Shown: piece by piece, positions 7,424 through 64,000 of the stretch | How the letters are laid out: each line of letters starts with the position of its first letter | How positions within the stretch are numbered: position 1 is the first letter of the stretch | Source of the DNA: Spirosoma profusum | GTDB taxonomy: Bacteria; Bacteroidota; Bacteroidia; Cytophagales; Spirosomataceae | Reading direction: 5' to 3' | Length of the DNA stretch: 64,000 bases | NCBI RefSeq assembly: GCF_014699005.1 | Contig: NZ_JACWZY010000001.1 | Span: 62,001-126,000 of the forward strand | Notes under the pieces: generated by a model | What the model was told of the DNA's origin: nothing | Databases searched by the model: none | The model's input: the letters and a program-made list of their open reading frames with translations, nothing else | Translations under genes and position numbers: made by a program

Positions 7424-7447
7424 ACTACGTTATAATTATGCTATTAA

Positions 7448-8368
7448 TTAGCTGCTGAAGTATTTTGATTTTCTTAACTTATTAGGACTGATATAAATGT
7501 ATTCTCGTTTTTCGTCGATTATTATATTGAATCTTTTTAGAAGATCGCCACCGAGAATACTTACTTTTTGATTGCCAATTTTACCAGTGAAAAAGCCTAC
7601 AGGAACGTCAGTTAATTCATTATGTCCAATAATGAAAATTGGCAAAATGGCCCTTTTAGTTTTTACGCTATTTCCAAAAGAATCTTTTAATTCCTTTTCG
7701 CTGATGACTTCTAAATTTTCATCAATTTTATTTTTACTGACAAATGTATCATCAAACAGAAGTGCGCCTGAATAACCAGAGTGAATTAGAAATCTATTGG
7801 TTAAACTTCGATTTTCGATTTTACAATTGGCTTCTATGAACATGAAATCGTCTTCAAAGTAAAGCTTGAGCTTCTCGAATTTTTTCGATTTTTCGGGTAG
7901 ACTAGTATATAGTATTAGCTGATTCTTATCGAAGTCTAACTCAATAACCTGACCAGCGAAAAGGTCAATACCAAATTTTCCGTCTGTTTTTGGCCCTGAA
8001 TTTTTATTCTCCCAAATCGATACGTTTGTCCAGTTTAATGCTCCTAGTTGTAGTGAATTGCCTTTACTGAATCTTGACGAGTTTCCGCCACCACCCCAAC
8101 TGCTGACGCTGTCAGCTCCAGCGAACGTAATAGTCTTTATTTTTTTTACTCCTTCTTCAGTTAACGAAACGGCATTTGCCGCTGTATGAAACATCAAATT
8201 AATGGTATCTTTTTGGTTAAGTTTAGCTTGTACGGAAATATTATTATACTCAGTTAACTGAAAAGGAATAGTGTATTTCGTCTCAATAAACGCCGAGGTT
8301 ACTTGCCCAAAAATCGATTGACAATTGATAAACAATACGAGAAATAAGCAAGGATTAAATCGTATCAT
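7448..8368 (-). CDS. Secreted retropepsin-like protein lacking both catalytic Asp
   Basis: A signal peptide (F-L-V-L-F-I-N-C-Q-S-I-F-G, with Q following) precedes two similar halves, as in bacterial aspartyl-protease-like proteins. Where active members have D-T-G in each half, this protein has M-F-H-T-A-A-N (about residue 60) and L-I-H-S-G-Y-S-G (about residue 194), so His replaces Asp at both places. The C-terminal strand G-G-D-L-L-K-R-F-N is typical of the fold. I infer a catalytically dead, binding-type protein. It lies 24 bp upstream of the sensor kinase gene on the same strand and may feed a signal to it. Base composition is more AT-rich than its neighbours and TACGT motifs are scarce, which hints at transfer. 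Confidence 0.7.
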   Translation of the reverse strand: MIRFNPCLFLVLFINCQSIFGQVTSAFIETKYTIPFQLTEYNNISVQAKLNQKDTINLMFHTAANAVSLTEEGVKKIKTITFAGADSVSSWGGGGNSSRFSKGNSLQLGALNWTNVSIWENKNSGPKTDGKFGIDLFAGQVIELDFDKNQLILYTSLPEKSKKFEKLKLYFEDDFMFIEANCKIENRSLTNRFLIHSGYSGALLFDDTFVSKNKIDENLEVISEKELKDSFGNSVKTKRAILPIFIIGHNELTDVPVGFFTGKIGNQKVSILGGDLLKRFNIIIDEKREYIYISPNKLRKSKYFSS

Positions 8369-8833
8369 GGATGAAAATAGTTAGGGAAATCATATGCTTT
8401 TTTTGCTAAGAATCAGATTTCTTAATCAACTTTTATTATTTTCTCGCTCACTGGTGGTCTGGGTCTTCACTACATGCCTATCTTTCTCTTTGCAGCGGGT
8501 GGTACGTCGGTTCCGTAATACCCTATACCTTATTTTCGGGTAGCGAACGTACTACGTAGTCAGGTTTGAAGAAACTCATTTGAAAAACTGCTCATCACGA
8601 AAGTCTGTAACCGCTGACAACGTAGTAACAGTCAGTCCACTCGTTGATAATAACGCCAGAACGCTTCGGGCGGATTGCCGTAAAAAAGTTCGTTGTGAGG
8701 TTTTCAATAGCTTGTAGAATTAGATTTTGAAAGATAATACCTTATAAGACGCTATATCATACGATGACTCGATTAATTTTGGTCCGCCCAAGCCGAAGGT
8801 CACTTATCGGATAAAGAATATTATTTTGCCCAT
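8369..8833. other. Divergent intergenic region without genes
   Basis: This 465-bp region separates the retropepsin-like gene (-) from the rhamnosidase gene (+) and must hold both promoters. I found no convincing coding frame and no clear -33/-7 pair. The right half (from about 8500) regains the TACGT motifs that are scarce to the left. Confidence 0.5.
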
Positions 8834-46741: not shown

Positions 46742-47818
46742 CTACGTGCTCAATTTTTTAAGGAATGGCTCCCGGAATTTGGAGGGTGTAGTACCGTATT
46801 GCCGGCGGAAGGCTTCGTTGAAGCTGGCCAGCGAGTTGAAGCCAGAGTCGAACGCGATCGCTGCAATAGTGTAATGAAAATAAGCCGGATTCCTCAGTCG
46901 TTGCTGGGCCTCTTCCAGACGTAACGTATTCATGTAATCGGCGTAGGATTGCTGCATTCGTTCGTTCAGCACCTGCGATAGATGATGGCGCGACGTAGCG
47001 AGCTTTTCAGCCAACGTATCAATAGTCTGCGACGAATCGAGGAAGAGTTTATCGACTGCCATGCTACGTTGGAGTGCCTGTTCGATCCGGTCAGCCTCAT
47101 CAGGTTTCAGGCTGGAGCGAGCGTATTTGGGACTTTTAGGAGAAGAAATAGACGACTGTGGTTGTGTTGGAGTCTGGTCTGAGATTTGCGTGAAAGGCCC
47201 GGCTTTTGCAATGACTTGATAACTAACCCAGTAAATCAGCAACGTAAGTGCAACGAATAATAACCGTACATCCGGAAAGCGACCGTAGTACACAACCATC
47301 AATGCCAGCGTAACGATAATAATCTGTTCGGTTATAGCGGCTACCCGAAGAAAAGGTTTCAGCGATTGAGGAGCTATTCGATAAGCCAGCCAGGTGTATA
47401 TTCCCAGCGATAAAGTCTGGAAGGCAGCCTTAGCGAAGGGATGGACTTCGCGGATCTCTCCCTCTGTTACGTATACGCCAGTCATCCAGAGGGTGGCCAA
47501 ACCGAATAGTACGAAATGCCACCAGTCTGCCAGCGCCCGTTTATTTGTGGTTTTGGCTTTGACATATAAGAATAGCAATGGCCCGATTAAATAGGGTAAT
47601 TGGTACGACAGCATATACAGCCATAGTACGTTCTGATAGAGCCACACTTTTGCAATAACCTTCAGTGTCAGTTGCAGGCCAGCCACCAGTAAAAACAGGC
47701 TTATATACAGATTGGCCGGTTCATTACGTCGGTTTTTCAGAAACCATATACTCAGCAATCCGCCCTGTAATGCGCCAAATAGCAGCAGAAAAATAGTAAC
47801 CTGTTGGACCATGATCAA
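46742..47818 (-). CDS. Membrane-anchored AraC-family transcriptional regulator
   Basis: The N-terminal 215 residues contain about seven membrane helices; the C-terminal 110 residues form an AraC double helix-turn-helix (L-A-E-K-L-A-T-S-R-H-H-L-S-Q-V-L and I-A-A-I-A-F-D-S-G-F-N-S-L-A-S-F). The linker is Ser/Pro-rich. Such 7TM-AraC fusions are common in Bacteroidota and would sense a membrane-associated signal. It lies 100 bp upstream of the hydrolase/kelch operon on the same strand, so it may control it. The start may be two codons later (M-V-Q-Q). Confidence 0.88.
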   Translation of the reverse strand: MIMVQQVTIFLLLFGALQGGLLSIWFLKNRRNEPANLYISLFLLVAGLQLTLKVIAKVWLYQNVLWLYMLSYQLPYLIGPLLFLYVKAKTTNKRALADWWHFVLFGLATLWMTGVYVTEGEIREVHPFAKAAFQTLSLGIYTWLAYRIAPQSLKPFLRVAAITEQIIIVTLALMVVYYGRFPDVRLLFVALTLLIYWVSYQVIAKAGPFTQISDQTPTQPQSSISSPKSPKYARSSLKPDEADRIEQALQRSMAVDKLFLDSSQTIDTLAEKLATSRHHLSQVLNERMQQSYADYMNTLRLEEAQQRLRNPAYFHYTIAAIAFDSGFNSLASFNEAFRRQYGTTPSKFREPFLKKLST

Positions 47819-49811: not shown

Positions 49812-52800
49812 CTATTGCTTCACTAATCGAATTTCCCGGCGCTGGGTGGACGTACTGACCTGCAAAAGGAGTACGCCCTGATTAACAATTGGTATTCGAA
49901 CACGCTCCCTGGCTGCTACGTTCTCAAGCCGGGTTTGATGCAGCGACTGGCCTTTCAGATTCGTTACGTTCACTTGAACCGACTGACTGTCTGCTCCGCT
50001 GATTTCAATGTCCACAAATTCACCTTCAACTGGGTTGCCCAGTACATTCACCTGCAACTCTGTACTCCGTTCAGCTACTCCCTGCCGGGAGCTTCCGCAA
50101 CCAACCAGCCAGTTGTACTCATAACTGGCCGACGAATTGCCCTGTTGTGCTCGTAGACGTAGCACTGCATTGTCAGTATACAACTCCAGTGCATAAGGAC
50201 CCGGCAACGTAGTGGGAAGCATCTCGTTTACTATCGAAAAACTCACCGGTTCACCCGTTAGCCCACTGTACATTGGCTGGAAACGTATCGACCGACGATT
50301 GGCACCAATACTCACGCAGCTTAATGTCTGTACGCCCGTTATGGTAAACGTACCGGACGGATTACCAGCAGGTTGGACGGTCAATAAAAAACTGGTGCTG
50401 GCACTAAGACCGCTGGGGTCGGTTGCTGTTACGGTCACGCTACTTACGCCCGATACACTCGGTACACCCCCAATCTGTGTCGGTGGACTAAAATTCATCC
50501 CAGGAGGCAGACCCGTAACGCTCAGTACCAGACTATGTGGTGATTCATTATCGGTGAAGGTCGTTTGTGGAATCGTGTAGCCGAAAGCCTGTCCCACTTT
50601 GGCCGTCTGGTCGGTGAGAGGCTGGTTGACGCGGGGTGACGTATTGGGCTGTGGACTCTGACAAGTAGCCAGCCAGTTGTACGTGAACGAGACTTCATTC
50701 GGGCTGCCTTCCTGTTTAGCCTTCAGCACAATGGTTGGATTATCGTTATAGAGTTGCAGTGAGTATGGCCCAGGGGCTGTCGTTGGAAATAACTCATTCA
50801 CTACCCAAAAACTCAGCGGTTGTCCGTTTAATCCCGAATAGCGTGGCGTAAAGCTGATTTCGTACCGATTGTTGGCTATCTGATTACACGTCAGCGGATT
50901 TACGCCTGTAATGGCAAATGGCGCGCTGGCCGTTGCCGATGAGGGTTGTACGGTTAAGCCAAAACTAGTGGTGGCACTAAGCCCGCCGGGGTCGGTAGCG
51001 ATCAGCACGATAGTCGACGTACCACTTTGGGAAGATGTACCGGAAATTACCGCCCCGGCCAAAGTCAAGCCCGATGGTAATCCCTGCGCTGTCAAACTTA
51101 ATGCGTTCGGAGTCTGGGCATCGGTAAACGTAGCGCTCACATTCAAACTAAACGGTTGTCCCTGAATGGCTACCTGAGTGGCTATCGGATTGGCCAGCGT
51201 TGGTGGCGTGTTGGTGGCCGTTGGTTCCACTACCGTCAACAGGAAACTGGTACTGACACTAAGTCCACCGGGGTCAGTTGCTGTTACGGTCACGTTGCTT
51301 ACGCCCGATACGTTAGGCACTCCTCCGATCTGATAAGGTGGGCTAAAGCTGAGACCAGTCGGTAATCCATTAGCCGTAAGTGTCAGACTGTGAGGTGATT
51401 CATTATCGGTGAAGGTCGTTTGCGGAATCGTGTAACCGAACGCCTGCCCCACTCGGGCCGTCTGGTCAGCTAAAGGCTGGTTGACGCGGGGTTGTGTATT
51501 GGGCTGAGTACTTTCGCAGTTGGCCAGCCAGTTATATGTATACGAAACTTCGCCCGGCGTGCCAGTCTGCTGTGCTTTAAGAACAATGGACGGATTGTCG
51601 GTATACAGTTGCAATGTGTAGGGCCCTTGTGCCGTAGTCGGGAACAGCTCATTGACCACGGAGAAACTGACAGGCTGCCCATTGAGACCACTATATTGTG
51701 GCGTAAAACTGATTACGTACCGATTGCTGGCAATCTGCTGACAAGTGTGTTTTGTAACAGCGGTAATAGCGAAAGGACCGGTGGGGGGATTAGTTTGCAG
51801 AACATCCACAGAAGCCCGACTCTGACAACTCCCTGTAGCACCGGTAACCGAGTAGTTACCAGACGTATTGACCACGATAGAGACCGTATTGGCGCCGGTA
51901 TTCCACTGATAGTTGTTGGCTCCGCTCGCCGTTAGTGTCGTGCTCTGGCCAAGGGCAATCGTGAGCGATGGATTGGCCGAAATACTAACCGAAGGCACCG
52001 TATTATCCTGACTCACTACGGCATTCGCCGTGGCCGTACATCCGTTCTGGGCTGTCAGCGTGACGGAGTAGGTAGCCGCTAACGTAGCACGAATGGTTTG
52101 AGTCGTTTCTCCCGTATTCCACCGATACGTTCCAGCGCCGATAGCTGATAAAGAAACCGACGAACTGCTGCAACTCAACGTAGCGCTACCCGGATTGATG
52201 CTGACACTTGGCGAACTCGCTTCCCGAGAAATAATCGCACTAGCCGAAGCCGTGCAGCCGTTGGCACCTGTGAGGGTTACCGAGTAAGTAGTCGCTGTGG
52301 AAACAGAAATACTCGCAGTCGTTTCGCCGGTTGACCAACGTAGTGAACCCGCTCCGACTGCCGACAGACTTGCCGATGACGTAGCGCAACTCAACGTAGC
52401 ACTTGAGGGGTTGATGCTCACCGTCGGTAATGCGTTGTCCTGAGTCACCTGAACCGAGGCCGAAGCCGTACAACTATTGGCAGCGGTCAGCGTGACCGAA
52501 TAGGTATCAGCTAAACTGACCGAAATACTTTGAGTAGTCGCTCCCGTGCTCCACCGATACGTACCGGCACCTGTGGCCGATAAACTTACCGTGGGAGTTC
52601 CACAGGTTAACATAGCATTGGATGGATTAATGCTTATTGTGGGCAGATCGCTGTCCTGACTCACTTGAATAGACGCCGTAGCTGTGCAACCATTTGCGGC
52701 TGTCAGCGTGACGGAGTAGGTAGTTGCCGACGTAGCACTAATAGATTGGGTGGCTGCTCCTGTGTTCCATCGGTACGTTCCAGTGCCGATAGCCGTCAGG

Positions 52801-55800
52801 CTCACCGTTGGATTAGCACAGGTTAACGTAGTACCGGTCGGCGTTCCGGTAGACGGATTGATCGTGACCGTCGGCAAATTAGTATCCTGGAAAACTTGTA
52901 CTGAAGTGGTAGCCGTACAACCATTCGTAGCTGTCAGGGTCACCGAATACGTACTGGCTGATGTGGCAGAGATGGTTGGCGTGGTTGCGCCCGTGTTCCA
53001 GCGATATGTACCACTACCGGCCACACTTAGGCTCACCGCCGACGTAGCGCAATTCAACGTAGCAGAGCCTGGAATAATGCTAACTGACGGCACATTATTA
53101 TCCTGAGTAATCGTCAACGTAGTAACGCTGGAACATCCCGACGTAGTGACGGTTACCGAATACAGTCCTGCTACGTTGACCACCGCCGTTCCTGCGCTAG
53201 GATTTTGACTGACAATTCCCAGCGTGGATTCGCCCGGTCCACCGAAAACGTATTGATTACCACCACCCGCTGTGAGGGTCAGCGAAGATTGAGCGCAGCT
53301 GAGCGTCCCTCCCGAACTGGCCGAAAGCGTAGGTACAGGTAAACTAGTTACGGTGACGGAAGTGGTAGCAGAACCGGAAAGCCCATTACTCAATACAGTG
53401 AGCGTAAAGCTCTGCGTACCTGTACCAATAGCTGGTAGTGTCTGACTTAACGCCGTTGTTGATGAAACGCCAGTCGTTGTACTGCTGCCACTGGTAAGCG
53501 TATAATTATAATTGCCCGTTACGTTGCTGACTTGGGCCGTGAACGTAATTTGACTTCCCGTACAGACAGTCCCAGCATTTGCCATAAATCCGGTCAGGGT
53601 AGGGGTGGCTTGCAGGACGTTTAAAAATGCTATGGCTCTGGTACAAAGTGAGGGCGTTCCATTATCACAGACTTGATAATCAAACCTATCCTGGCCAATA
53701 AAACCGGTATTAGGTGTATATGTAAAACTCCCATCGGGGTTTAGCGTTAGCGACCCATTTTGCGTTGTCACAGACAGAGAAGCTACCAGCGTACCACCAT
53801 CGATATCGAAATCATTGGTGAGCACATTGCCCGTTATCGGTGTATTGACGCTGCCGGTTAAGGTGTCGTTTGTGGCTATGGGAGGAAAATTGGGTAAAGA
53901 AAATACCGTGATAAATGTGAATGCCATACCAGAGCAACCCGCCTGGTTGGTGCCTGTAACCGTGTAAACGCCCGTAGCGCTGACGGAAATAGCGGGGGTA
54001 GTCTCGCCCGTTGACCAGGTATAGGAATCGGCGCCCGATGCAGTGAGGGTGGCAGATTGCCCCGAGATAATAATCGGTGAGGGCGAGACTGTGATTGTAA
54101 CGGAGGGTGGGCTAGTTACCGACAGGCTTGTCGTGGCCCTTGTGGTTAAACCATTATCCTGTACGATAAGGGTGTAATTCTGTGTACCTGATCCACTCGC
54201 GGTCAGCGTTTGGCTGAACGTAGCAGAGGACATAGTGCCACTTACAGGACCGCTGCCTCGGGTGAGCGTGTAGTTATAGCTACCCGTTACGTTGCCGATT
54301 TGGGCTGTGAACGTAACGGGGCTATTGGCACAGACGGGATTGGGCGTAGCTGACAGATCAGTAATAGTCGGGGGAACTACAGTCACGGTAACGTTCACGC
54401 TGGCCACAGATGAGCAGCTTCCACTGGTGCCGGTGACCGAATAGGGGCCTGTTTCAGTGGCAGAAATTGCTGCGCTTGTCTCCCCCGTCGACCATCTATA
54501 CGTATCGGCACCCGATGCGGTGAGGGTAGTAGATTCGCCCTGATCAATGGTTAGTGAAGGCGAGGCTGAGATGCTGACAGAAGGTGCGCTATTCACCGAC
54601 AGGCTTGTAATTGCCACTGCAGATAAGCCATTATCAACTACCGTAAGGGTAAAGCTCTGCGTACCTGATCCGCTGGCTGTCAGCGTCTGACTAAACGTAG
54701 TAGCAGTTTTAGAACCGGTTATTGGACTGCTGCCATTAGTCAGCGTGAAGTTATAACTGCCTGTTACGTTGCTCACAGTAGCGGTGAACGTAACAGGATT
54801 ACCCGCACAGACGGGGTTGGGCGAAACGGCCAGATTCGAGAGGGTAGGCGAAACGAGCGAAGTGAACCTGGAGACATAAACATTCCCACCCCCATCATTA
54901 CGTTCAGTATAGCCGGCGCTATACGTATTATTGGCATCCGCTGCCACCGAACGATTTATCTCTCTATCGGTTCCGCCCAACTTCCTGGCCCATACGTAGT
55001 TGCCGGATGCGTCAAACTTGCCAACAAAACCATCATAATCGCCCGCTGACGTTAGGCTGGCATTTCCAGTACCGGGATTAAAATCTACGGTATTCATAAA
55101 TTGGCCAGCCAAATGGATATTGTTCGAGTTATCCAATATTAGCGAATAGCCAATGTCTCTGCTCGTTCCGCCGATACGTTTCGCCCAGACATAATTGCCG
55201 GATGAACTGAGCTTACTCAAAAAAATATCAAAATCCCCCGCCGACGTTAGGTCAACAGTGCCGCTGCCCGGATCAAAATCAACTTCATTGACAAAGTAGC
55301 CAGTCGTATAAACATTGCCTGAATTATCCACACCAATTGACTGCCCCCGATCATCAGAAGTGCTGCCCATACGTTTGGCCCAGACATAATCGCCTGACGC
55401 GTCGAGCTTACTGATGAATATATCATTATTACCTGCCGATGTCAGATTAGCCGTTGCCGGCGAAGGAGCCGGATCAAAATCCACCATACCCTGGAAATAA
55501 CCCGTAGTGTAAACATTGCCCGAATTATCTACCGCTATCGAAGTGCCAGCCTCTGCATTCGACCCTCCCAGCCGTCTCGCCCAGCCGAAACTGCCCGATG
55601 GGGTAAGTTTGCTGACGAAAATATCGGTAGTACCCCCCGAAGAAACCAGACTGGCTACATCTGGCCCTGGGTCAAAATCTGCGGTATTCGAAAAATTACC
55701 TGTAGTATAGATATTGCCTGAGTTATCCAGCGTCAACGCAAGGCCATAGATAAAACCCGAGCCACTAAAATGTTTGACCCAAACGAAGTTGCCCGACGAA

Positions 55801-56300
55801 TTAAGCTTGCACACGAAACTATTCGGACCACCACCTGCTAATAAAAAGGTTTCTCCCGGACCTGGATCAAAATCCACCCGACCCTGGAAAGTACCCGTGA
55901 AGTAGACATTCCCCGAATTATCTACTGCTATTGAGTTGCCAACATCAGAAGATGATGCCCCGATACGTTTAGCCCAGACGAAATTGCCGGCTGCATCAAG
56001 CTTACTCACGAAAATATCCTCAAAGCCTGCCGACGATAGATTGAATTCACCGGGGCCAGGATCAAAATCGATATTCGCTCCCCCGAAATTTCCTGTGGTA
56101 TAGACATTCCCCGCGTTGTCTACGGCCACTGAGAATCCCCGATAAGCAAATTCCCGCGTCCAGGCAAGGTTTTGCGCCTGAGCTTCGATAATGAAACCAG
56201 TTAGACTTATCAACGCGACAAAAAGACGTAGCAGAAACTGATAGTTCAGACGAAGCAGCCCAAAACGGTGCTTCCGATGGATACGTAGCGTTTGTTCCAT
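49812..56300 (-). CDS. Giant secreted multidomain surface protein (propeller, Ig-like repeats, type IX-like C-terminal tail)
   Basis: The 2162 residues begin with a long signal peptide (cleavage near residue 42, A-Q-A-Q). Residues 43-480 hold seven SBBP-type blades (A-V-D-N-S-G-N-V-Y-T-T-G; six with a D-F-D-P-G-type turn, the seventh degenerate), enough for a complete seven-bladed propeller. Then come three copies of an N-P-V-C-A-G module (481, 644, 899), a cadherin-like domain (about 804-895), five near-identical 72-residue Ig-like repeats (about 1070-1433) with flanking diverged copies, three copies of an unrecognised module of about 85 residues (1507-1595, 1791-1880, 1981-2069) and putative-Ig domains between them. 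The C-terminal 75 residues (from L-Q-V-N-V-L-G-N-P-V) resemble a type IX secretion sorting domain ending I-R-L-V-K-Q. It is probably cell-surface adhesin-like. Confidence 0.88.
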   Translation of the reverse strand: MEQTLRIHRKHRFGLLRLNYQFLLRLFVALISLTGFIIEAQAQNLAWTREFAYRGFSVAVDNAGNVYTTGNFGGANIDFDPGPGEFNLSSAGFEDIFVSKLDAAGNFVWAKRIGASSSDVGNSIAVDNSGNVYFTGTFQGRVDFDPGPGETFLLAGGGPNSFVCKLNSSGNFVWVKHFSGSGFIYGLALTLDNSGNIYTTGNFSNTADFDPGPDVASLVSSGGTTDIFVSKLTPSGSFGWARRLGGSNAEAGTSIAVDNSGNVYTTGYFQGMVDFDPAPSPATANLTSAGNNDIFISKLDASGDYVWAKRMGSTSDDRGQSIGVDNSGNVYTTGYFVNEVDFDPGSGTVDLTSAGDFDIFLSKLSSSGNYVWAKRIGGTSRDIGYSLILDNSNNIHLAGQFMNTVDFNPGTGNASLTSAGDYDGFVGKFDASGNYVWARKLGGTDREINRSVAADANNTYSAGYTERNDGGGNVYVSRFTSLVSPTLSNLAVSPNPVCAGNPVTFTATVSNVTGSYNFTLTNGSSPITGSKTATTFSQTLTASGSGTQSFTLTVVDNGLSAVAITSLSVNSAPSVSISASPSLTIDQGESTTLTASGADTYRWSTGETSAAISATETGPYSVTGTSGSCSSVASVNVTVTVVPPTITDLSATPNPVCANSPVTFTAQIGNVTGSYNYTLTRGSGPVSGTMSSATFSQTLTASGSGTQNYTLIVQDNGLTTRATTSLSVTSPPSVTITVSPSPIIISGQSATLTASGADSYTWSTGETTPAISVSATGVYTVTGTNQAGCSGMAFTFITVFSLPNFPPIATNDTLTGSVNTPITGNVLTNDFDIDGGTLVASLSVTTQNGSLTLNPDGSFTYTPNTGFIGQDRFDYQVCDNGTPSLCTRAIAFLNVLQATPTLTGFMANAGTVCTGSQITFTAQVSNVTGNYNYTLTSGSSTTTGVSSTTALSQTLPAIGTGTQSFTLTVLSNGLSGSATTSVTVTSLPVPTLSASSGGTLSCAQSSLTLTAGGGNQYVFGGPGESTLGIVSQNPSAGTAVVNVAGLYSVTVTTSGCSSVTTLTITQDNNVPSVSIIPGSATLNCATSAVSLSVAGSGTYRWNTGATTPTISATSASTYSVTLTATNGCTATTSVQVFQDTNLPTVTINPSTGTPTGTTLTCANPTVSLTAIGTGTYRWNTGAATQSISATSATTYSVTLTAANGCTATASIQVSQDSDLPTISINPSNAMLTCGTPTVSLSATGAGTYRWSTGATTQSISVSLADTYSVTLTAANSCTASASVQVTQDNALPTVSINPSSATLSCATSSASLSAVGAGSLRWSTGETTASISVSTATTYSVTLTGANGCTASASAIISREASSPSVSINPGSATLSCSSSSVSLSAIGAGTYRWNTGETTQTIRATLAATYSVTLTAQNGCTATANAVVSQDNTVPSVSISANPSLTIALGQSTTLTASGANNYQWNTGANTVSIVVNTSGNYSVTGATGSCQSRASVDVLQTNPPTGPFAITAVTKHTCQQIASNRYVISFTPQYSGLNGQPVSFSVVNELFPTTAQGPYTLQLYTDNPSIVLKAQQTGTPGEVSYTYNWLANCESTQPNTQPRVNQPLADQTARVGQAFGYTIPQTTFTDNESPHSLTLTANGLPTGLSFSPPYQIGGVPNVSGVSNVTVTATDPGGLSVSTSFLLTVVEPTATNTPPTLANPIATQVAIQGQPFSLNVSATFTDAQTPNALSLTAQGLPSGLTLAGAVISGTSSQSGTSTIVLIATDPGGLSATTSFGLTVQPSSATASAPFAITGVNPLTCNQIANNRYEISFTPRYSGLNGQPLSFWVVNELFPTTAPGPYSLQLYNDNPTIVLKAKQEGSPNEVSFTYNWLATCQSPQPNTSPRVNQPLTDQTAKVGQAFGYTIPQTTFTDNESPHSLVLSVTGLPPGMNFSPPTQIGGVPSVSGVSSVTVTATDPSGLSASTSFLLTVQPAGNPSGTFTITGVQTLSCVSIGANRRSIRFQPMYSGLTGEPVSFSIVNEMLPTTLPGPYALELYTDNAVLRLRAQQGNSSASYEYNWLVGCGSSRQGVAERSTELQVNVLGNPVEGEFVDIEISGADSQSVQVNVTNLKGQSLHQTRLENVAARERVRIPIVNQGVLLLQVSTSTQRREIRLVKQ
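51998..53092 (-). repeat. Five tandem 72-residue repeats in the giant protein
   Basis: Copies share the frame S-I-N-P-S-S-A-T-L-S-C, G-T-Y-R-W-N-T-G, T-Y-S-V-T-L-T-A-N-G-C-T-A with small changes, and the unit is about 216 bp in DNA (one copy has a short insertion). Diverged copies lie on both sides. Copy number could vary by recombination. Confidence 0.8.
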
Positions 56301-56316
56301 AACGATACAATAGATA

Positions 56317-56346
56317 AACCCGTGGCGGGTGAAGAGGCCACGGGTT
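56317..56346 (-). promoter_or_regulatory. Stem-loop at the start of the giant-protein transcript
   Basis: On the minus strand AACCCGTGG (56346-56338) pairs with CCACGGGTT (56325-56317) around a 12-nt loop. It begins directly after the -7 element and ends 16 bp before the start codon. The matching hairpin at 60701 has GTGA/TCAC where this has GTGG/CCAC, a compensated pair. Confidence 0.7.
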
Positions 56347-56411
56347 CAAAGCTAGACGCACTATGTCCCGTAGACTTTCACTATTGTAACATTGGCTTGA
56401 CTTATCGTAAC
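56347..56411 (-). promoter_or_regulatory. Promoter with two 16-bp direct repeats, giant-protein gene
   Basis: On the minus strand, GTTACGATAAGTCAAG (56411-56396) and GTTACAATAGTGAAAG (56390-56375) start 21 bp apart. After exactly 20 bp comes TAGCTTTG (56354-56347), a TAnnTTTG -7 element. The same arrangement precedes the M36 peptidase gene at 60636. Direct repeats two helical turns apart, abutting the -33 region, are what an AraC-type activator needs. Confidence 0.75.
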
Positions 56412-56442
56412 CTACTTAGAAAAAATGAAGGAAAATTGATAA

Positions 56443-59400
56443 TTAATTAGCCTGAGTGGCGTAGTCGGAAGGCGTCAGGCCATAGAGCTGGCGGAAACTG
56501 CGGGTGAAATAAGCCGGGCTCTCAAAACCCACCGCATAAGCCGTCTGGCTAACCGGCTGTCCCTGAATCAGCAATTGCGTAGCGCGCTTGAGCCGGTAGG
56601 CGCGTATGAAATCGGAGGTTGATAAACCCGTTAAGTTTTTCAATTTGCGGTGGAGGTGCATCCGGCTCAGATAGGCTTTGTCGGCCAGTTCATCAACCCC
56701 AAAGGTTGAATCGTCGAGGTGAGTATCCAGTAATGTATAAAGCTGCTCCAGAAATGGATTGGACACAGACGTATCGGTTGCCGGTAACGTAGCATCTGAA
56801 CTCGTCAACACTTTTCGCATCTGGTCGCGGAAGCGTCGTTGACGTTCGAGTAGGTTCGTGATACGTAACCGAAGCTCGTGCAGATTGAACGGTTTCGTCA
56901 GGTAATCGTCAGCCCCCTCGGTTAATCCCTGTAATCGGCTGTCCATAGCGGTACGTGCCGTGAGCAGAACGACCGGAATGTAATTGGTACGTGGGTCTTC
57001 CTTTAGTTTCCGGCAAAGGGTAAACCCATCCATACCGGGCATCATTACGTCGCTGATAATTAAATCGGGCGCTCTCTTCAAGGCTTCTTCAAATCCCTGT
57101 AAGCCATTGGTTGCCTGATGAATACGATACGTTGCCGGTAAACTACTGGTGATAAATTCCAGTAGTTCGAGATTGTCTTCCACCAGAAGAATAGTAGGTG
57201 CTTCGCCGTTCTGGATGTTTGTTGACGAATCCGCTGCTACGTCCTCTTGATACGTTACTGGCTTTTCGACTACCGGTTGATTCAGCGATTCTGCAACAAC
57301 CCGTCGATAGGGTAGGAACACCGTAAATGTCGAACCTCGTTCTTCCTGGCTCACTACGTTGATCGAGCCGCCCTGAAGCCCAATAAATTCTTTGACCAGC
57401 GCCAGACCAATGCCTGTTCCTTCTGGTTTGCTGACGGAAATGCTACGTTCTGAATCCGAAGTCGCCTGATAAAACCGGTTGAAAATGTGATCTATTTTAT
57501 CGGCTGGAATGCCGATACCCGTATCCGAAACAGTCAGATAAATGCCGGGTTTTAACGTAACCCGAATGCTACCTCCTGAGGAGGTGAATTTGAGCGCATT
57601 CGCCACCAGGTTATAGAGAATGCACTCCAGCTTGCCCATGTCGAACCAGTAATCACCCTCAATTTGAGATTGATACGTGAGTTGAATCTCCTTCGATTCG
57701 GCTTCGGCACTAAATGACTGAATACGTTCGCCGATAAATTCGTCCAGCGATCCCCGGCTTTCGTTGACGCTCAAATGGCCCGATTCCAGTTTTGAGAGAT
57801 CGAGTAACTGATTGATCAGCCCCAAAAGTTGATGCGCGTTTCGATCAATAACATCGAGTCGGCGCTTGTCGGTTTTCGACCGTTCTTCCTGCATCATCTG
57901 CCCAATGGGCGTCAGAATCAGGGTGAGAGGTGTGCGAAATTCATGCGTGATGTTGGTGAAGAATCGCGTTTTCATGGCATCGACTTCACGCAGGTGAGCC
58001 GATTCTTTCTGTTTAAAAACAACGGACTGCTGCAGAAATAATCTCCTGCGATACTGCTGCGCCAGCACATATACAATCAAAAGAGAGAGAAGCACGTAGC
58101 AGGCGTAAGCCCAAAACGTTCCCCACCAGGGCGATTGGATGGTCAGGTGAAGCGTACGCACATGAGAACTCCAGTGTCCAGACGTATTGGACGCATTCAC
58201 GCGAAGTATGTAGCTGCCAGGACGTAAGCCAGTATATTCAGCCACCGGTCGATCTGTATAAATCCAGTCATCGTTCAAACCTTCCAGTCGGTAGCGGTAC
58301 CGGATTTTTGTCTGGCGATTGTATTGCATGGCGGCAAATCCAACCGTCACAAAGTTCTGGTCATGGGGGAGTACCAATTCCGGCATCGCCTGTACCGAGA
58401 GCGAATCCTGGTCAGGTTTAAATGGTTTATTATTAATCTGAATATCAGTCAACTGAACGTCGGGTTGATACGTGTCTTCGCCAATTTGTTGAGGATCGAA
58501 GGCCGTAATTCCATCCACTCCGCCCAGAATAATCCGGTCGTCCGGCAGATGCAGGTTATGAAATCGGTTAAATTCATCGGCCTGCAAACCGTCCTCCTGC
58601 GTATAGGTGCGAGTACGTAGCGTTCGGCGGTCAACCCGGCATAAACCCTGATTCGTGCCAACCCAGATTCCGCCCCGCCGGTCGGGGATGGCCGAATACA
58701 CTACGTTGTTGGGCAGCCCATCCTGCGTGGTCAATCGTCGGCATTGCCCGGTACGTTTGTCGAATCGGCACAGACCGCTACCGAACGTACCAATCCACAA
58801 CAGATTGGTATCCAGCGGGTCGGCAAATAAGCCAATCAACTCATTGCTGCTCAGTGACGTTACGTTATTCGGCTGGGAAGCGTAGTGACGAACCTGTCCC
58901 GTGGTGCGATCGACCCGGTAAAGTCCCTTCGCTACCGTTGCCAGCCAAAGCGCTTGTCGGTCGACAACCAACTGATTGACAGGTAACCCAACTGTTGATT
59001 GAATCGAAAACGGAAACCGCTTCCAACGCCCTTCTTCCTGATAAACCACTAACGTATCATAAATAGCCCATACCCTGCCATCCGGATCAGTAGCCAGCGA
59101 TGCGGAGTGCGTTAAATTTAACTCGCTGGGGTCCAGCTTTATCGGAAATTGAATCGGGGTGATCTGCTTCGTAGCAAGATTTAGCCGGAGGAAAGGCGTA
59201 ATACCCGCATTGAACCACAGTTGCCCTTGTTTATCAAACGTATAGCGAAACTTATACGGCGAAGAAAGAAGCGGAAAGCCCGAAAATTGGTCGGCAGGTA
59301 CGCCGAGATACGCACTCACAACATCGTTCTGAAAACCGCGGTTGTAGGGTCGGGCGTCGAAAGCAGCTGCCCGTAGGTTATACTTCCGAATACCGTAGCC

Positions 59401-60411
59401 ATTAGTGCCCATCCATAGTACGTCGGACTGATCGATAAACATACTTCGGCAATACCGGGAACCGGCTACTGTTTCAAGCCGCTGGCTATCCTGCTGAGGA
59501 TTAAAACGTAGCAGTAACGTATCGAGGTTAAAGAACGTATTGCCCCGGCTATCGGTAGCAAAATAATATTTCCACTGGCTGCGGTATGTGGGCAGGACAA
59601 TGCGATTTAACAAGCCCTGCTGCGGATGCAGGATTGTCATGTGCTGATTTGACGCCAGCATCAGCAGGCCATCTGGCCGAACGTAGAGGTTTTGGATAGT
59701 ATCTGGTCGCGACTGATACGTTTCGGGCTGCGTAAACCAACTGATGAGACGTCCTGTCTGTTTATCCTGTCTATATAGCTGATTTTTAGTGGCTACCCAG
59801 GTCGGTCCGCCAAGGTTCTGGCGAACGGTTATGACTGATTTTAGCTCCGGGAATCGGTGAATTCGATTCGTCGCCAGATCGATGCAGATTAGTTTTCCCG
59901 GTTTACCAAGAATCAGCCACAATCGATTTTGATTATCAGGGTAGTACTTCTCGATACGTTCCTGTCCGAGCGCACGGCGAAAGAAGGGCAAACGGGAAAA
60001 ATTGATGAACGTTTCCCGGGCAGGATCAAATATGTCGATCTCCTTTTCCTCACTCAGTATCCAGAGTCGCCTGCTTGAATCGGTCTGAATATCAGCCATC
60101 GACGAGGACGATAAGGAGGCTCGTTCAGTCGTTGGCTGAAACACTTTAAAGTTTCGGCCATCGTACCGACTTAACCCATCGCGGGTTGCCATCCAGATAA
60201 ATCCCTGCCGATCCTGAACGATAGCCGGGACAAACGCTTGCGGCAATCCCTGCCGGGCGGTGATCAGTTCGGGACGGGGGAGATTGAACGACTGCGCCCG
60301 GAGCGTTGGGAGAATGCACACTGTCAGTAAAAGCAAATATCCCGGCAGGAGAAACGCCTGCTTTGCCCGGTTACTACTGAACAGCCAACGTGGGTGAACC
60401 TTTAGGAGCAT
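56443..60411 (-). CDS. Hybrid two-component system regulator (sensor kinase + receiver + AraC DNA-binding)
   Basis: A signal/anchor near residues 20-40 is followed by Reg_prop beta-propeller repeats (about 50-660; units such as F-I-W-M-A-T-R-D-G-L-S-R-Y-D-G), a Y_Y_Y domain (about 685-760) and a membrane helix (about 766-788). Next are HisKA with His823 in T-H-E-F-R-T-P-L, HATPase (about 930-1045, G-T-G-I-G-L-A), a receiver with Asp1121 in S-D-V-M-M-P-G, and an AraC helix-turn-helix (about 1220-1320, A-Y-A-V-G-F-E-S-P-A-Y-F). The single protein thus senses a periplasmic ligand and binds DNA. It is flanked by the two genes that share a direct-repeat promoter. It is transcribed in the same direction as the giant protein and divergently from the M36 peptidase. 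Confidence 0.95.
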   Translation of the reverse strand: MLLKVHPRWLFSSNRAKQAFLLPGYLLLLTVCILPTLRAQSFNLPRPELITARQGLPQAFVPAIVQDRQGFIWMATRDGLSRYDGRNFKVFQPTTERASLSSSSMADIQTDSSRRLWILSEEKEIDIFDPARETFINFSRLPFFRRALGQERIEKYYPDNQNRLWLILGKPGKLICIDLATNRIHRFPELKSVITVRQNLGGPTWVATKNQLYRQDKQTGRLISWFTQPETYQSRPDTIQNLYVRPDGLLMLASNQHMTILHPQQGLLNRIVLPTYRSQWKYYFATDSRGNTFFNLDTLLLRFNPQQDSQRLETVAGSRYCRSMFIDQSDVLWMGTNGYGIRKYNLRAAAFDARPYNRGFQNDVVSAYLGVPADQFSGFPLLSSPYKFRYTFDKQGQLWFNAGITPFLRLNLATKQITPIQFPIKLDPSELNLTHSASLATDPDGRVWAIYDTLVVYQEEGRWKRFPFSIQSTVGLPVNQLVVDRQALWLATVAKGLYRVDRTTGQVRHYASQPNNVTSLSSNELIGLFADPLDTNLLWIGTFGSGLCRFDKRTGQCRRLTTQDGLPNNVVYSAIPDRRGGIWVGTNQGLCRVDRRTLRTRTYTQEDGLQADEFNRFHNLHLPDDRIILGGVDGITAFDPQQIGEDTYQPDVQLTDIQINNKPFKPDQDSLSVQAMPELVLPHDQNFVTVGFAAMQYNRQTKIRYRYRLEGLNDDWIYTDRPVAEYTGLRPGSYILRVNASNTSGHWSSHVRTLHLTIQSPWWGTFWAYACYVLLSLLIVYVLAQQYRRRLFLQQSVVFKQKESAHLREVDAMKTRFFTNITHEFRTPLTLILTPIGQMMQEERSKTDKRRLDVIDRNAHQLLGLINQLLDLSKLESGHLSVNESRGSLDEFIGERIQSFSAEAESKEIQLTYQSQIEGDYWFDMGKLECILYNLVANALKFTSSGGSIRVTLKPGIYLTVSDTGIGIPADKIDHIFNRFYQATSDSERSISVSKPEGTGIGLALVKEFIGLQGGSINVVSQEERGSTFTVFLPYRRVVAESLNQPVVEKPVTYQEDVAADSSTNIQNGEAPTILLVEDNLELLEFITSSLPATYRIHQATNGLQGFEEALKRAPDLIISDVMMPGMDGFTLCRKLKEDPRTNYIPVVLLTARTAMDSRLQGLTEGADDYLTKPFNLHELRLRITNLLERQRRFRDQMRKVLTSSDATLPATDTSVSNPFLEQLYTLLDTHLDDSTFGVDELADKAYLSRMHLHRKLKNLTGLSTSDFIRAYRLKRATQLLIQGQPVSQTAYAVGFESPAYFTRSFRQLYGLTPSDYATQAN

Positions 60412-60635
60412 ATATCGTCAATCGAGTGACAGATTACTTTTTTGATATTGGTGCAGGTAAAAGTTTAGGTAAAATTAATTGTTTGTAAAATACAGAAAAT
60501 GATAATAACTGATTTATAATCTATCATATTCTTTTAATCTATACGTAATTTAAAATGAATAGGGTTGACAATTAAGTTGTTCCAATTTTACTTGAGAGGT
60601 GCTTTTGTCAGAATTTCTCTCCCGTTTTGAAGGAG
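60412..60635. other. AT-rich divergent intergenic stretch
   Basis: About 225 bp with no coding frame, low G+C and no copy of the direct repeat pair, so the regulator's own promoter does not appear to carry the motif shared by its neighbours. Confidence 0.5.
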
Positions 60636-60700
60636 GTTACAATAGGTCAAGCTGATGTTACAATAGTGAAAGCCTAAACTTTCTGACTCACTTAGCTTTG
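60636..60700 (+). promoter_or_regulatory. Promoter with two 16-bp direct repeats, M36 peptidase gene
   Basis: GTTACAATAGGTCAAG (60636-60651) and GTTACAATAGTGAAAG (60657-60672) start 21 bp apart and match at 13 of 16 positions. TAGCTTTG lies at 60693-60700, 20 bp after the second repeat. The second repeat is identical to that upstream of the giant protein. Confidence 0.75.
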
Positions 60701-60729
60701 AACCCGTGACTCATTGCCTGTCACGGGTT
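60701..60729 (+). promoter_or_regulatory. Stem-loop at the start of the M36 peptidase transcript
   Basis: AACCCGTGA pairs with TCACGGGTT (60721-60729) around 11 nt, directly after the -7 element and 113 bp before the start codon. It has no long T-run, so an RNA stability or regulatory role is more likely than termination. Confidence 0.65.
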
Positions 60730-60842
60730 TATTGGTTTTAATCCATAAGCCAGCCTGCTTTGATAATCCTAACCCTTACCCTTTACTCAAATAGCGTGCC
60801 TAACGTACTGGATTTCAAGAGATGATTTATTCACACCTGATT

Positions 60843-63800
60843 ATGGAACACAACTACAAAAAAGTTGCCAGCTATTTCCTGGCAGAAATTTTACTCCTGT
60901 TCTTATTGGTGTCAGGGGGACGTACCGCCCTGGCTCAAACCGAGGTAGAAACGGCTCGTCAATACGTAGCGGCTAACCTGACGCAGCAAAAATTAGTACC
61001 CGTCGATATCGATGGGTTAAGGCTATCCAGCGCCTATCTGTCGCCGACTACGGGTTGGTATCACGTTTATTTCAATCAGACGTATCAATCCATCGATGTC
61101 TACAACCGGATGATGAACGTAGTACTGGTCGATAAGCAGGCGTCGTATCTCAATCATAATTTCATTGCTGGTATTGAGAGTATTACCAAAAAAGGAAATA
61201 TTAAAGGCGCTATTTCGCCGTTGACTGCTTTGCAGAAAGCCGTTGCTAATGTGGGGCTGGCAACAACCAATCTGGCCCCTATTCAATCGTTGAGCGCCGT
61301 TAAGTCGGCTAGTGGTGTTCTAACCCGAAGTGTGTATGCTCTGCCTGAACTGTCTGATGAAAAAATCGACGTTAAACTTTTCTGGTTACCCGTCGAACCG
61401 GACAGTATCGATAAGAAGTCAGTACGTGAATTAGCCTTAAGCTGGCAGGTTCATTTTTTAACCAAAGACGGCAGAAATGGCTGGAATATTCATGTGGACG
61501 CTACTTCGGGAGAAATTCTACGAAAGACTGATGCAGTCCGTAACTGTAGCTTTGATTCGCCCAACCATCTGAAGGTTTCTCACGAGTGTGTGGGAGCACC
61601 ATCGATAGACGCAGCTCAGTATTTTGGCGTCCAGAAAAAAGCGTTTGCCGGAAACAGTTACACCGTCTTCGATTATCCACTGGAAAGCCCAAATCACGGT
61701 TCCCGAACGGAGTCAATCAGTCCGTATACTCGCTTTGTGCCTACCGGGACAGGGCCTGGTGCCACCAATGGCTGGCATTACGATGGGGTAACCAGTTACT
61801 CGATTACAAGAGGCAATAATGTCTGGGCGCAGGAAGATGCAAACGGGAATGATGGTACCGGGGCTAGCCCTTCGTCGGCTACGCTTGATTTTAATTTTCC
61901 GTATACAAAAGGGCTGAATACGGCGGCTGGTAACCGGGATGCGGCCATTACCAATTTGTTTTACTGGAATAATCTGGTTCATGATGTGCTGTGGAAATAC
62001 GGATTTGACGAACCCAGTGGCAATTTTCAAAAGAGCAATATGGGGCGAGGAGGCCTTGGCAATGATTACGTCATTGCTGATGCTCAGGACGGATGGGATA
62101 TCAACAATGCTTTTTTCTATACACCAGCAGATGGTACACCGGGTCGTATGGAAATGTTCCTGTTTAGTAATGCAAACGGTTATCAGCCAGACGCTGACTT
62201 TGATAACGGCGTCATATCGCATGAATATGGTCATGGCTGGTCGATTCGCCTGACAGGTGGCCCGGCTAATTCCGACTGTCTGCAGAATGCTGAACAAGGG
62301 GGAGAAGGCTGGAGTGACTATCTGGCATTGATGCTAACAACCAACTGGGCTTCACTGAGCGCCAATGTCGCAAGTGCGAATATCCCCAGAAACATTGCGA
62401 CCTATGTAAGTGGTCAATCAACTACTGGTGGGGGGATTCGCCCATATCGTTACTCGTACGACATGGCAAAGGTAAACAGTGGCGCTACCTATACTAAAGT
62501 TAATGGCATGAGTTTTGGCGATTGGCACAAAATCGGTAACCTCTGGGCTATAATGTTATGGGATATGACCTGGGAGATTATTCTGCAGGATAAGTATATC
62601 GAGCCATATATTTACACTACGCCCAGCAACGTATCAGCCATGCGAGGGAATATTGCCGCGTTGAAACTGGTGACAGAAGGGCTGCGATTACAAACCTGTA
62701 ACCCTAGTTTTGTACAGGCGCGGGATGCCATTTTGCAGGCCGATCAGATGTTGTTTGCCGGTCGGTATCGGTGCGCCATCAGCCGGGCGTTTTCCCGCCG
62801 GGGTCTGGGAGCCAACGCATCTACTGGAGCTACCAGTGGCGATTATACAGTCACCGAAGACTTTACGCCCATTAATGGCCCCAGACTCAGTTCAACTATG
62901 TTAATAACGACCTGCACTAGTGCTTCATTTGCGTATCAGGCTACCTCCGGCACCAGCGGAACAACGTTTCAATGGAGTCGGGAAGCCGTGAGTGGCATTA
63001 GCAATAGTAGTGCTACTGGAAATTCGGCCAGAATCAATGAAACATTGATAAACACAACTGTACGACCAGTAATCGTTCCATATTATATCTCAATGACGTC
63101 GGCTGGATGTACATCAGTTCAGTCTGTGAAGTTAACGGTTAACCCAGGTCCGAGCCCTACAGTCCGTTCATACTCTGTCTGTCAAAATGCTACAGTACCC
63201 GCTGGACAAGGACTTGTGCTGCCTCAGCTTACCGGTACTGTTATTGCCGTGCTAACTACTGGTTCGCCTACTTATGTTCGGCCCTATGGTAACAACATAA
63301 CAGCATATAGCGCATGGGGGGATGCTAACTATCAGTCATTTACCTTTACGGCCCCTTCAAGTGGTACGTTTACATTTGATATTATAGCCGCTTCACTGAC
63401 AGGAACAGAACCAAGCGATACGTATCTGTCACTTTACCGAAGCTCCTTCAACCCGTCTAGCCCTGCTACTAATTTTCTTCGTGGTGATGATGATAGTGCG
63501 ACCCAGGGTAGGTCAAAACTTACCCACTCCTTAACGCAGGGAACAATCTACATCCTGGTCGCTAGTTCGGTTTACAGTGGCGCAAGGGGGACCATTACGT
63601 TACGCGCGAGTCAGGGAGGTTTTGATACTGGTATAGCCCGATGGTACGCCACAGCCGCAGGGGGAGCAACATTAGCGACAGGAACGGTATTTAACCCAGT
63701 TGGCGTAACAGCCTCTGGAATAGTAAATACGGCAACACCTGTTACCAAAACGTATTACGTAACAAACAGTCATTCCACGCCCTGCCGAACCGCCACTACG

Positions 63801-64000
63801 TTTACTGTGATGGGTACGGAGTCGCCCGTAGCAACCAGCACCACTATTACGTTGGGAAACTCGGTTTCGCTGACGGCAACAGGTTGTGAAGGCGCCTTGT
63901 CATGGTATCAGGCGAGCGACAACGTAGCGGTAAGCATGCCTTTGTCGCCATCGGTCACTACGCAGTATTACGCCCGTTGCCAACTGACATCCAGTTCGGG
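60843..64000 (+). CDS. Secreted M36 (fungalysin-type) metallopeptidase with Ig/PKD-like repeats, 3' end outside window
   Basis: No stop codon occurs from 60843 to the window end, so the gene is truncated at 1052 codons. A signal peptide (E-I-L-L-L-F-L-L-V-S, cleavage near residue 33) is followed by an FTP propeptide (about 40-130) and the M36 catalytic domain (about 230-640). The zinc site is H460-E461-x-x-H464 in S-H-E-Y-G-H-G-W, with third ligand E488 in G-E-G-W-S-D. After residue 680 come PKD/Ig-like beta domains and a pre-peptidase-type beta domain (about 780-920), usual for surface or cargo proteins of the type IX system. It shares a promoter design with the giant protein. Confidence 0.92.
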   Translation, partial: MEHNYKKVASYFLAEILLLFLLVSGGRTALAQTEVETARQYVAANLTQQKLVPVDIDGLRLSSAYLSPTTGWYHVYFNQTYQSIDVYNRMMNVVLVDKQASYLNHNFIAGIESITKKGNIKGAISPLTALQKAVANVGLATTNLAPIQSLSAVKSASGVLTRSVYALPELSDEKIDVKLFWLPVEPDSIDKKSVRELALSWQVHFLTKDGRNGWNIHVDATSGEILRKTDAVRNCSFDSPNHLKVSHECVGAPSIDAAQYFGVQKKAFAGNSYTVFDYPLESPNHGSRTESISPYTRFVPTGTGPGATNGWHYDGVTSYSITRGNNVWAQEDANGNDGTGASPSSATLDFNFPYTKGLNTAAGNRDAAITNLFYWNNLVHDVLWKYGFDEPSGNFQKSNMGRGGLGNDYVIADAQDGWDINNAFFYTPADGTPGRMEMFLFSNANGYQPDADFDNGVISHEYGHGWSIRLTGGPANSDCLQNAEQGGEGWSDYLALMLTTNWASLSANVASANIPRNIATYVSGQSTTGGGIRPYRYSYDMAKVNSGATYTKVNGMSFGDWHKIGNLWAIMLWDMTWEIILQDKYIEPYIYTTPSNVSAMRGNIAALKLVTEGLRLQTCNPSFVQARDAILQADQMLFAGRYRCAISRAFSRRGLGANASTGATSGDYTVTEDFTPINGPRLSSTMLITTCTSASFAYQATSGTSGTTFQWSREAVSGISNSSATGNSARINETLINTTVRPVIVPYYISMTSAGCTSVQSVKLTVNPGPSPTVRSYSVCQNATVPAGQGLVLPQLTGTVIAVLTTGSPTYVRPYGNNITAYSAWGDANYQSFTFTAPSSGTFTFDIIAASLTGTEPSDTYLSLYRSSFNPSSPATNFLRGDDDSATQGRSKLTHSLTQGTIYILVASSVYSGARGTITLRASQGGFDTGIARWYATAAGGATLATGTVFNPVGVTASGIVNTATPVTKTYYVTNSHSTPCRTATTFTVMGTESPVATSTTITLGNSVSLTATGCEGALSWYQASDNVAVSMPLSPSVTTQYYARCQLTSSS

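Follow-up and report, generated by a model that had tools for sequence, protein, structure and literature searches.

Genes, predicted operators and leaders at the locus

The window, which is the whole 64,000-nucleotide stretch that was analysed, corresponds to C11:62001-126000 in a genome of 8,731,341 bases on 81 contigs. Read from right to left, the genes of interest are an M36 peptidase gene (plus strand), the gene for a 1322-aa hybrid regulator (minus strand) and the gene for a 2162-aa giant protein (minus strand). The features are as follows.

49812..56300, minus strand: giant surface protein, 2162 aa, with SBBP propeller repeats and Ig-like and cadherin-like domains
56317..56346, minus strand: leader hairpin of the giant gene, 10-bp stem and 10-nt loop (fold -17.3 kcal/mol, z -5.67)
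56347..56354, minus strand: predicted -7 promoter element TAGCTTTG of the giant gene, 20 bp past the operator
56375..56411, minus strand: predicted operator of the giant gene, a 16-bp site (56411-56396), 5 bp and a 16-bp site (56390-56375)
56443..60411, minus strand: hybrid two-component regulator, 1322 aa (Pfam: Reg_prop/Y_Y_Y sensor, HisKA, HATPase_c, Response_reg, HTH_18/HTH_AraC)
60636..60672, plus strand: predicted operator of the M36 gene, a 16-bp site (60636-60651), 5 bp and a 16-bp site (60657-60672)
60693..60700, plus strand: predicted -7 promoter element TAGCTTTG of the M36 gene, 20 bp past the operator
60701..60729, plus strand: leader hairpin of the M36 gene, 10-bp stem and 9-nt loop (fold -17.6 kcal/mol, z -4.81)
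60822..64000 and continuing beyond the window, plus strand: M36 (fungalysin) metallopeptidase by Pfam, 1147 aa in full (full ORF at L198 122-3565)

We observed that the regulator combines a sensor, a histidine kinase, a receiver and an AraC domain in a single chain, and every Pfam score was above its cut-off. Both PF07494 (Reg_prop) and PF07495 (Y_Y_Y) matched its periplasmic sensor. These domains agree with the original prediction, which had placed a sensor kinase fused to a receiver and an AraC domain between two targets. The C-terminus of the giant scored 19.9 bits against the type A sorting tail of the T9SS (TIGR04183), slightly below the cut-off of 23. The M36 peptidase matched PF02128 with 395 bits and contains the HExxH motif as HEYGH; against the T9SS-dependent M36 model NF038113 it scored 557 bits, below the curated cut-off of 885. 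SusC/SusD models matched none of the 15 proteins scanned (the regulator, the giant, the M36 peptidase and 12 neighbours).

At both flanking promoters we recovered the predicted arrangement at its coordinates, with paired 16-bp repeats at a 21-bp period, then 20 bp and the same -7 element. The second repeat had been described as identical at the two sites, and it is (16/16). Within each promoter, repeat 1 and repeat 2 agree at 11/16 positions for the giant gene and at 13/16 for the M36 gene. The GTTACRATA core named earlier has to be replaced by a 16-bp site of roughly GTTAC-N4-R-(GT/TG)-N-AAG. Between the two promoters, the 37-bp operators agree at 33/37 positions and the -7 elements at 8/8. 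Because the 20-bp spacers agree at 5/20 positions, the operator and the -7 element stand out as conserved islands. The -7 element of the giant gene matches TAnnTTTG, which is given as the -7 consensus, with TTTG around -33, in passages of a published study (PMC7366714). At both genes the second site ends at about the expected -33 position and TTTG is absent there, and for this reason the layout is consistent with activation by polymerase contact.

Sites of the repeat pair in the genome and the family

We searched the whole genome with the repeat-pair pattern GTTACNATANNTNNANNNNNNGTTACNATA, allowing up to three mismatches and using the reversed pattern as a control. Eleven matches were found: four with no mismatch, none with one or two, and seven with three. 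The reversed control gave 24 matches at the same threshold, so the seven three-mismatch matches are no more than chance expects. Few sites had been anticipated, and the four exact pairs in 8.73 Mb bear this out. A single 16-mer was also tried as a genome-wide marker and rejected as unspecific (67 matches at up to three mismatches, against 91 in the control; three exact).

The exact pairs lie at the giant promoter, at the M36 promoter, at the promoter of a CAP-domain lipoprotein gene on contig C21 and, as a looser copy, at a lanthipeptide cluster on C22. In three of the four the match covers the full 16-bp sites, with TAnnTTTG 20 bp further on. Behind the third site (C21:100877) come 20 bp, TACCTTTG and a gene whose 199-aa product has a CAP domain and starts like a lipoprotein. 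The fourth (C22:78882) lies ahead of the lanthipeptide cluster, which is of class I, and is oriented divergently to the gene for a TPR hybrid kinase with an AraC domain of its own. It retains GTTACAATA twice, with a 21-bp period, whereas neither of its 16-bp sites has the AAG half, and because this half is missing we do not firmly count it as a target. The regulon had been predicted to be private to two genes; the matching promoter on C21 and the looser one on C22 go beyond that.

The cluster on C22 (L022, G000:C22:70000-88000; 7100-8720, minus strand) encodes a dehydratase, LanC and a C39-ABC transporter. Several short leader-like precursor ORFs are present in it, most of them behind a similar element with GCCGAAAA...GAGTAGGCAT, as judged by eye. 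This repeated element could be a regulatory RNA.

We compared the regulator and its sites across related genomes. In 36 genus genomes, the closest regulator relatives among the matches listed were at most 53% identical. Two of these 36 genomes had matches to the first pattern with no more than one mismatch, namely this one (four sites) and G033 (one different-looking match). A close relative of the regulator (67% identical, locus L114) was found in genome contigs of Larkinella rosea, of the family Spirosomataceae. Its gene is divergent from that of a giant 1111-aa NHL/Ig protein, whose TIGR04183 sorting tail scores 23.6 bits, above the cut-off of 23. The promoter of this protein contains a 37-bp site that agrees with the C21 operator at 30/37 positions, then 20 bp and TACTTTTG.

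When the C21 operator was slid along the 19.9-kb L. rosea locus, this site was the best match (30/37), the next reached 21, and 100 shuffles reached at most 23. The operator of the giant gene gave a best match of 28/37 (shuffles at most 23) and that of the M36 gene 27/37 (shuffles at most 21). Elsewhere, the same test with the C21 operator gave 27/37 at L019, which was chosen for a motif match, and 26/37 at L061, which adjoins a distant regulator relative. The flanking 8 kb on each side of the L. rosea regulator contained no M36 gene. M36 homologs (E <= 1e-60) occur in 9/36 genus genomes, and among the matches listed only that of the window lies near one of the listed regulator relatives.

With one mismatch allowed, the refined site was present in just two of 222 family genomes, this one (three times) and G173 (once); the refined pattern was built with the L. 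rosea site in view, so that its four matches were bound to be found. As a control, the reversed refined pattern gave 10 matches in the same genomes. The site in G173 has exactly the letters of the L. rosea site, and G173 appears to be L. rosea or a very near relative. The regulator relatives in these genomes were 100% identical here, 68% in G173 and at most 53% in the others among the matches listed, with two candidates scored per genome, such that an ortholog may have escaped. The refined site and the closest regulator relatives therefore co-occur in the same 2/222 genomes. The presumed recognition helices, placed by analogy with AraC and MarA, are nearly identical in the window regulator and its L. 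rosea ortholog.

We considered whether another AraC-type regulator might bind the sites, alone or in cross-talk, with the window regulator acting on other targets. The genome has 102 HTH_18 domains. Candidates include the C22 TPR hybrid kinase (L022 9141-12155) and an AraC-family gene of the ordinary type (window 46742-47818), which is some 8.6 kb away from the giant's operator. The C22 kinase is a candidate because the adjoining site has GTTACAATA twice at the 21-bp period and its AraC domain has much of the first HTH in common with that of the window regulator. The shared motif, at an AraC-domain identity of only 44%, runs contrary to the trend between DNA-binding domain and motif described below. 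However, both 16-bp sites on C22 are missing the AAG half, the window regulator has one of the two operators immediately on either side, and the refined site tracks the ortholog of the window regulator in 2/222 genomes. We regard binding by another AraC-type regulator as unlikely.

Binding of the repeats by a LytTR-family regulator seems very unlikely to us. The conserved unit here is 16 bp, and LytTR repeats (ACCnCTTAn-like) are unlike it, although passages of a study of LytTR systems (PMC6193735) describe direct repeats with a period of about 21 bp there too (9 bp + 12 bp). There are 72 LytTR domains in the genome and short LytTR-like ORFs behind giants at L067, L068, L071 and L074. Among the matches listed, which do not include such short ORFs, so that a short copy could be missed, the nearest LytTR domains are about 50 kb off (C11:67502 and C11:172422), and C21 has none. 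Immediately beside the giant lie two genes, Dabb and Iso_dh, neither of them LytTR, and across genomes the site tracks the AraC hybrid.

The likeness of the giant and M36 promoters extends past the -7 element, where the original prediction had stopped, into a hairpin with a 10-bp stem that it did not mention. In the giant gene, the mRNA is predicted to start at this hairpin. For both hairpins, 0/200 shuffles were equally stable. One stem pair is changed on both sides between the two, with pairing retained. The hairpin-arm pattern AACCCGTG-N8-16-CACGGGTT occurs at three places genome-wide (giant, M36 and one palindrome on C10), against none in the control. An Rfam search of 56200-60900 gave no match. 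No comparable hairpin is present in the C21 leader (z 0.68), and the one in the L. rosea leader is weak (z -1.27, with the fold started 4 nt earlier than in the others), so the hairpin is a local feature. Our guess is that it might protect or tune the giant and M36 mRNAs.

A likeness that spans operator, -7 element and hairpin, about 100 bp, might also be expected if a promoter block had been duplicated recently and the two genes were not regulated together. This is the pattern of neither the spacer, which agrees at 5/20 positions against 33/37 in the operator and 8/8 in the -7 element, nor the hairpin, with its paired change. The C21 and L. rosea promoters also keep the operator and the spacing and have a different leader. 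We consider such a duplication highly improbable.

It is likely, in our assessment, that the hybrid regulator activates a small regulon whose products are exported (the giant, the M36 peptidase and the C21 CAP lipoprotein) via the predicted repeat-pair operator. The domains, operator, spacing, rarity and co-occurrence behind this reading all come from the sequence. We infer the signal, the dimer, binding and activation as follows. The regulator would sense a periplasmic signal and phosphorylate its own receiver, and the AraC domain would then bind the 16-bp direct repeats, at their 21-bp period, as a dimer on one face of the DNA. With the second repeat abutting the -33 place, the bound regulator would substitute for a -33 element and recruit RNA polymerase to TAnnTTTG. 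The targets switched on would be the neighbouring giant and M36 genes and the distant CAP-domain lipoprotein gene on C21. The idea that the regulator activates both flanking genes thus gains from the co-occurrence of site and ortholog in 2/222 genomes and from the promoter of the L. rosea giant; as a complete account of the targets it falls short, for there appear to be further ones.

Paralogous regulators and giant-like genes

We assembled 42 regulator genes of this kind (30 from this genome and 12 from relatives) with 69 flanking intergenic regions. Period-21 direct repeats were found 12 times in these regions, and 50 other periods (10-60) gave a mean of 0.26 and a maximum of 2 direct repeats in the same regions. 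The control of 189 other intergenic regions gave five period-21 repeats, some of them simple TCATT-like ones. TTTG followed the second site after 24-25 bp, in register, in 14/17 tabulated operators. The operator of the C80 giant was without TTTG, and the repeats at L070 and those downstream of the L074 regulator were off-geometry; both of these were rejected as a poor fit to the operator geometry.

The paralogs in this genome have the same operator geometry in other letters. A scan for direct repeats followed by a strict TAnn-TT(T/C)-G gave intergenic matches in 6/42 loci, including L084 of another species, and none in mono-shuffles. Several operators carry CAnnTTTG or a weaker element; these escaped the strict scan and were found by a looser look only. 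For 10 regulators, similarity of the operators correlated with similarity of the DNA-binding domains (Spearman 0.40; 168/20000 permutations as high), and also when the L. rosea ortholog was removed (Spearman 0.38; 350/20000 permutations). These 10 operators were picked by eye, and the L070, L074, L076, L100 and L106 regulators and the C21 sites were left out. AraC-domain identity alone was rejected as a motif predictor: no motif in the genome comes closer to that of the window than the C22 one, although the C22 domain is 44% identical.

The pairing of regulator and giant is not a one-off in this genome. Counting as giant-like any immediately adjacent ORF that matched the window giant at E <= 1e-5, we found that 12/30 regulators of this genome adjoin a giant-like gene, or 11/29 without the window. 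With the window left out, such matches were found in 12/55 adjacent ORFs against 7/125 other ORFs in the same loci (P = 0.0026, Fisher), with some adjacent-ORF matches covering Ig-type or C-terminal parts only. Six adjacent proteins were scanned, and five had propeller, FG-GAP, Ig-type or beta-helix families; the protein at L091 had none. In the loci of relatives, 0/12 regulators adjoin a giant-like gene, and for this reason the module idea set out below is not shown for the genus.

Several observations concern individual loci. Seven further regulators lie beside giant-like genes (L091, L092, L094, L096, L099, L100 and L104), and among these a period-21 repeat was found in the flanks of L100 only. 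At L072 (G000:C78), the same operator type flanks one regulator gene on both sides (153, minus strand; 4729, plus strand). Several regulator-giant pairs are on short contigs and may reflect recent duplication. Very similar ORFs of 111-113 aa lie behind giants at L067 2791-3132, L068 15343-15684, L071 611-946 and L074 12392-12727. The L067 copy, the only one compared with Pfam, scored 23.4 bits, just above the LytTR cut-off.

We built a second operator type, the C80 type, from L067, L068 and L080. With 0 to 3 mismatches it matched at five places in this genome and at none in the control. Two are the C80 and C81 giants (by construction), and one is a 1133-aa surface giant on C75. The place on C20 is upstream of a 254-aa exported-looking ORF without a Pfam match. 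On C33, the operator is followed by a 69-aa broken giant remnant and then by a 1736-aa M36-giant fusion, which starts about 0.5 kb from the operator and not directly behind it. In this fusion (L205, G000:C33, 1204-6414, minus strand) an M36 peptidase is joined to giant-type repeats. Since the C80-type places include both a giant and an M36 gene, they point to a second regulon that combines the two under one operator code. A third M36 gene, on C4, had no clear operator in the 1.5 kb upstream, where one purine-rich repeat was seen.

We tentatively suggest, as a reading that could well prove wrong, that genes for hybrid two-component systems (HTCS) have expanded in this genome into modules of sensor, operator and surface protein, which, where the operator is readable, have one geometry (16 / 5 / 16 / 20-21 / NNNNTTTG) and different letters. 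A given signal would clothe the cell in its own surface protein, in some cases together with an M36 peptidase that trims this protein, its relatives or the matrix. Two codes (the window type and the C80 type) have dispersed targets that each include an M36 gene, and on this reading the giant-M36 pairing would have arisen twice or been kept. A fixed promoter geometry with changeable 16-bp sites would offer a direct way to predict pairs of surface protein and sensor in Spirosomataceae-type bacteria, and would lend itself to studies of how the specificity of AraC domains diverges.

Comparison with known systems

LytTR systems, in passages of PMC6193735, also have promoter-proximal direct repeats spaced about 21 bp; those repeats are 9 bp long and of other sequence, and no LytTR gene was found beside the window sites. 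The HTCS for which passages of PMC11253607 describe contact between receiver and AraC domain has the domain arrangement of the window regulator, and it is proposed there that the receiver, while unphosphorylated, masks the AraC domain. Passages of the cited papers describe such hybrid sensor kinases as glycan-digestion switches. Among open-licence PMC papers, we found no title on an HTCS that controls an M36 peptidase or an adhesin.

The closest parallel is the Bacteroides HTCS, as presented in passages of PMC3878776. Operators there are direct repeats averaging 21 bp, for example 16 + 5 + 16, which are thought to hold the dimer on one DNA face. The two systems have in common the kinase, receiver and AraC domain in one chain, two-site operators of about 21 bp, few targets both neighbouring and distant, and motif similarity that follows domain similarity. 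They differ in what is controlled. In Bacteroides this is polysaccharide utilisation with SusC/SusD, whose genes usually but not necessarily lie beside the HTCS regulator (25/36), whereas here it would be a giant SBBP/Ig protein, an M36 peptidase and a CAP lipoprotein. The original prediction had called the pairing undescribed. This holds for the target set; the operator architecture, by the same passages, was already published for the Bacteroides hybrid systems. These data suggest that the new part is the target set of giant surface protein, M36 peptidase and CAP lipoprotein, and that the mechanism is of a known kind.
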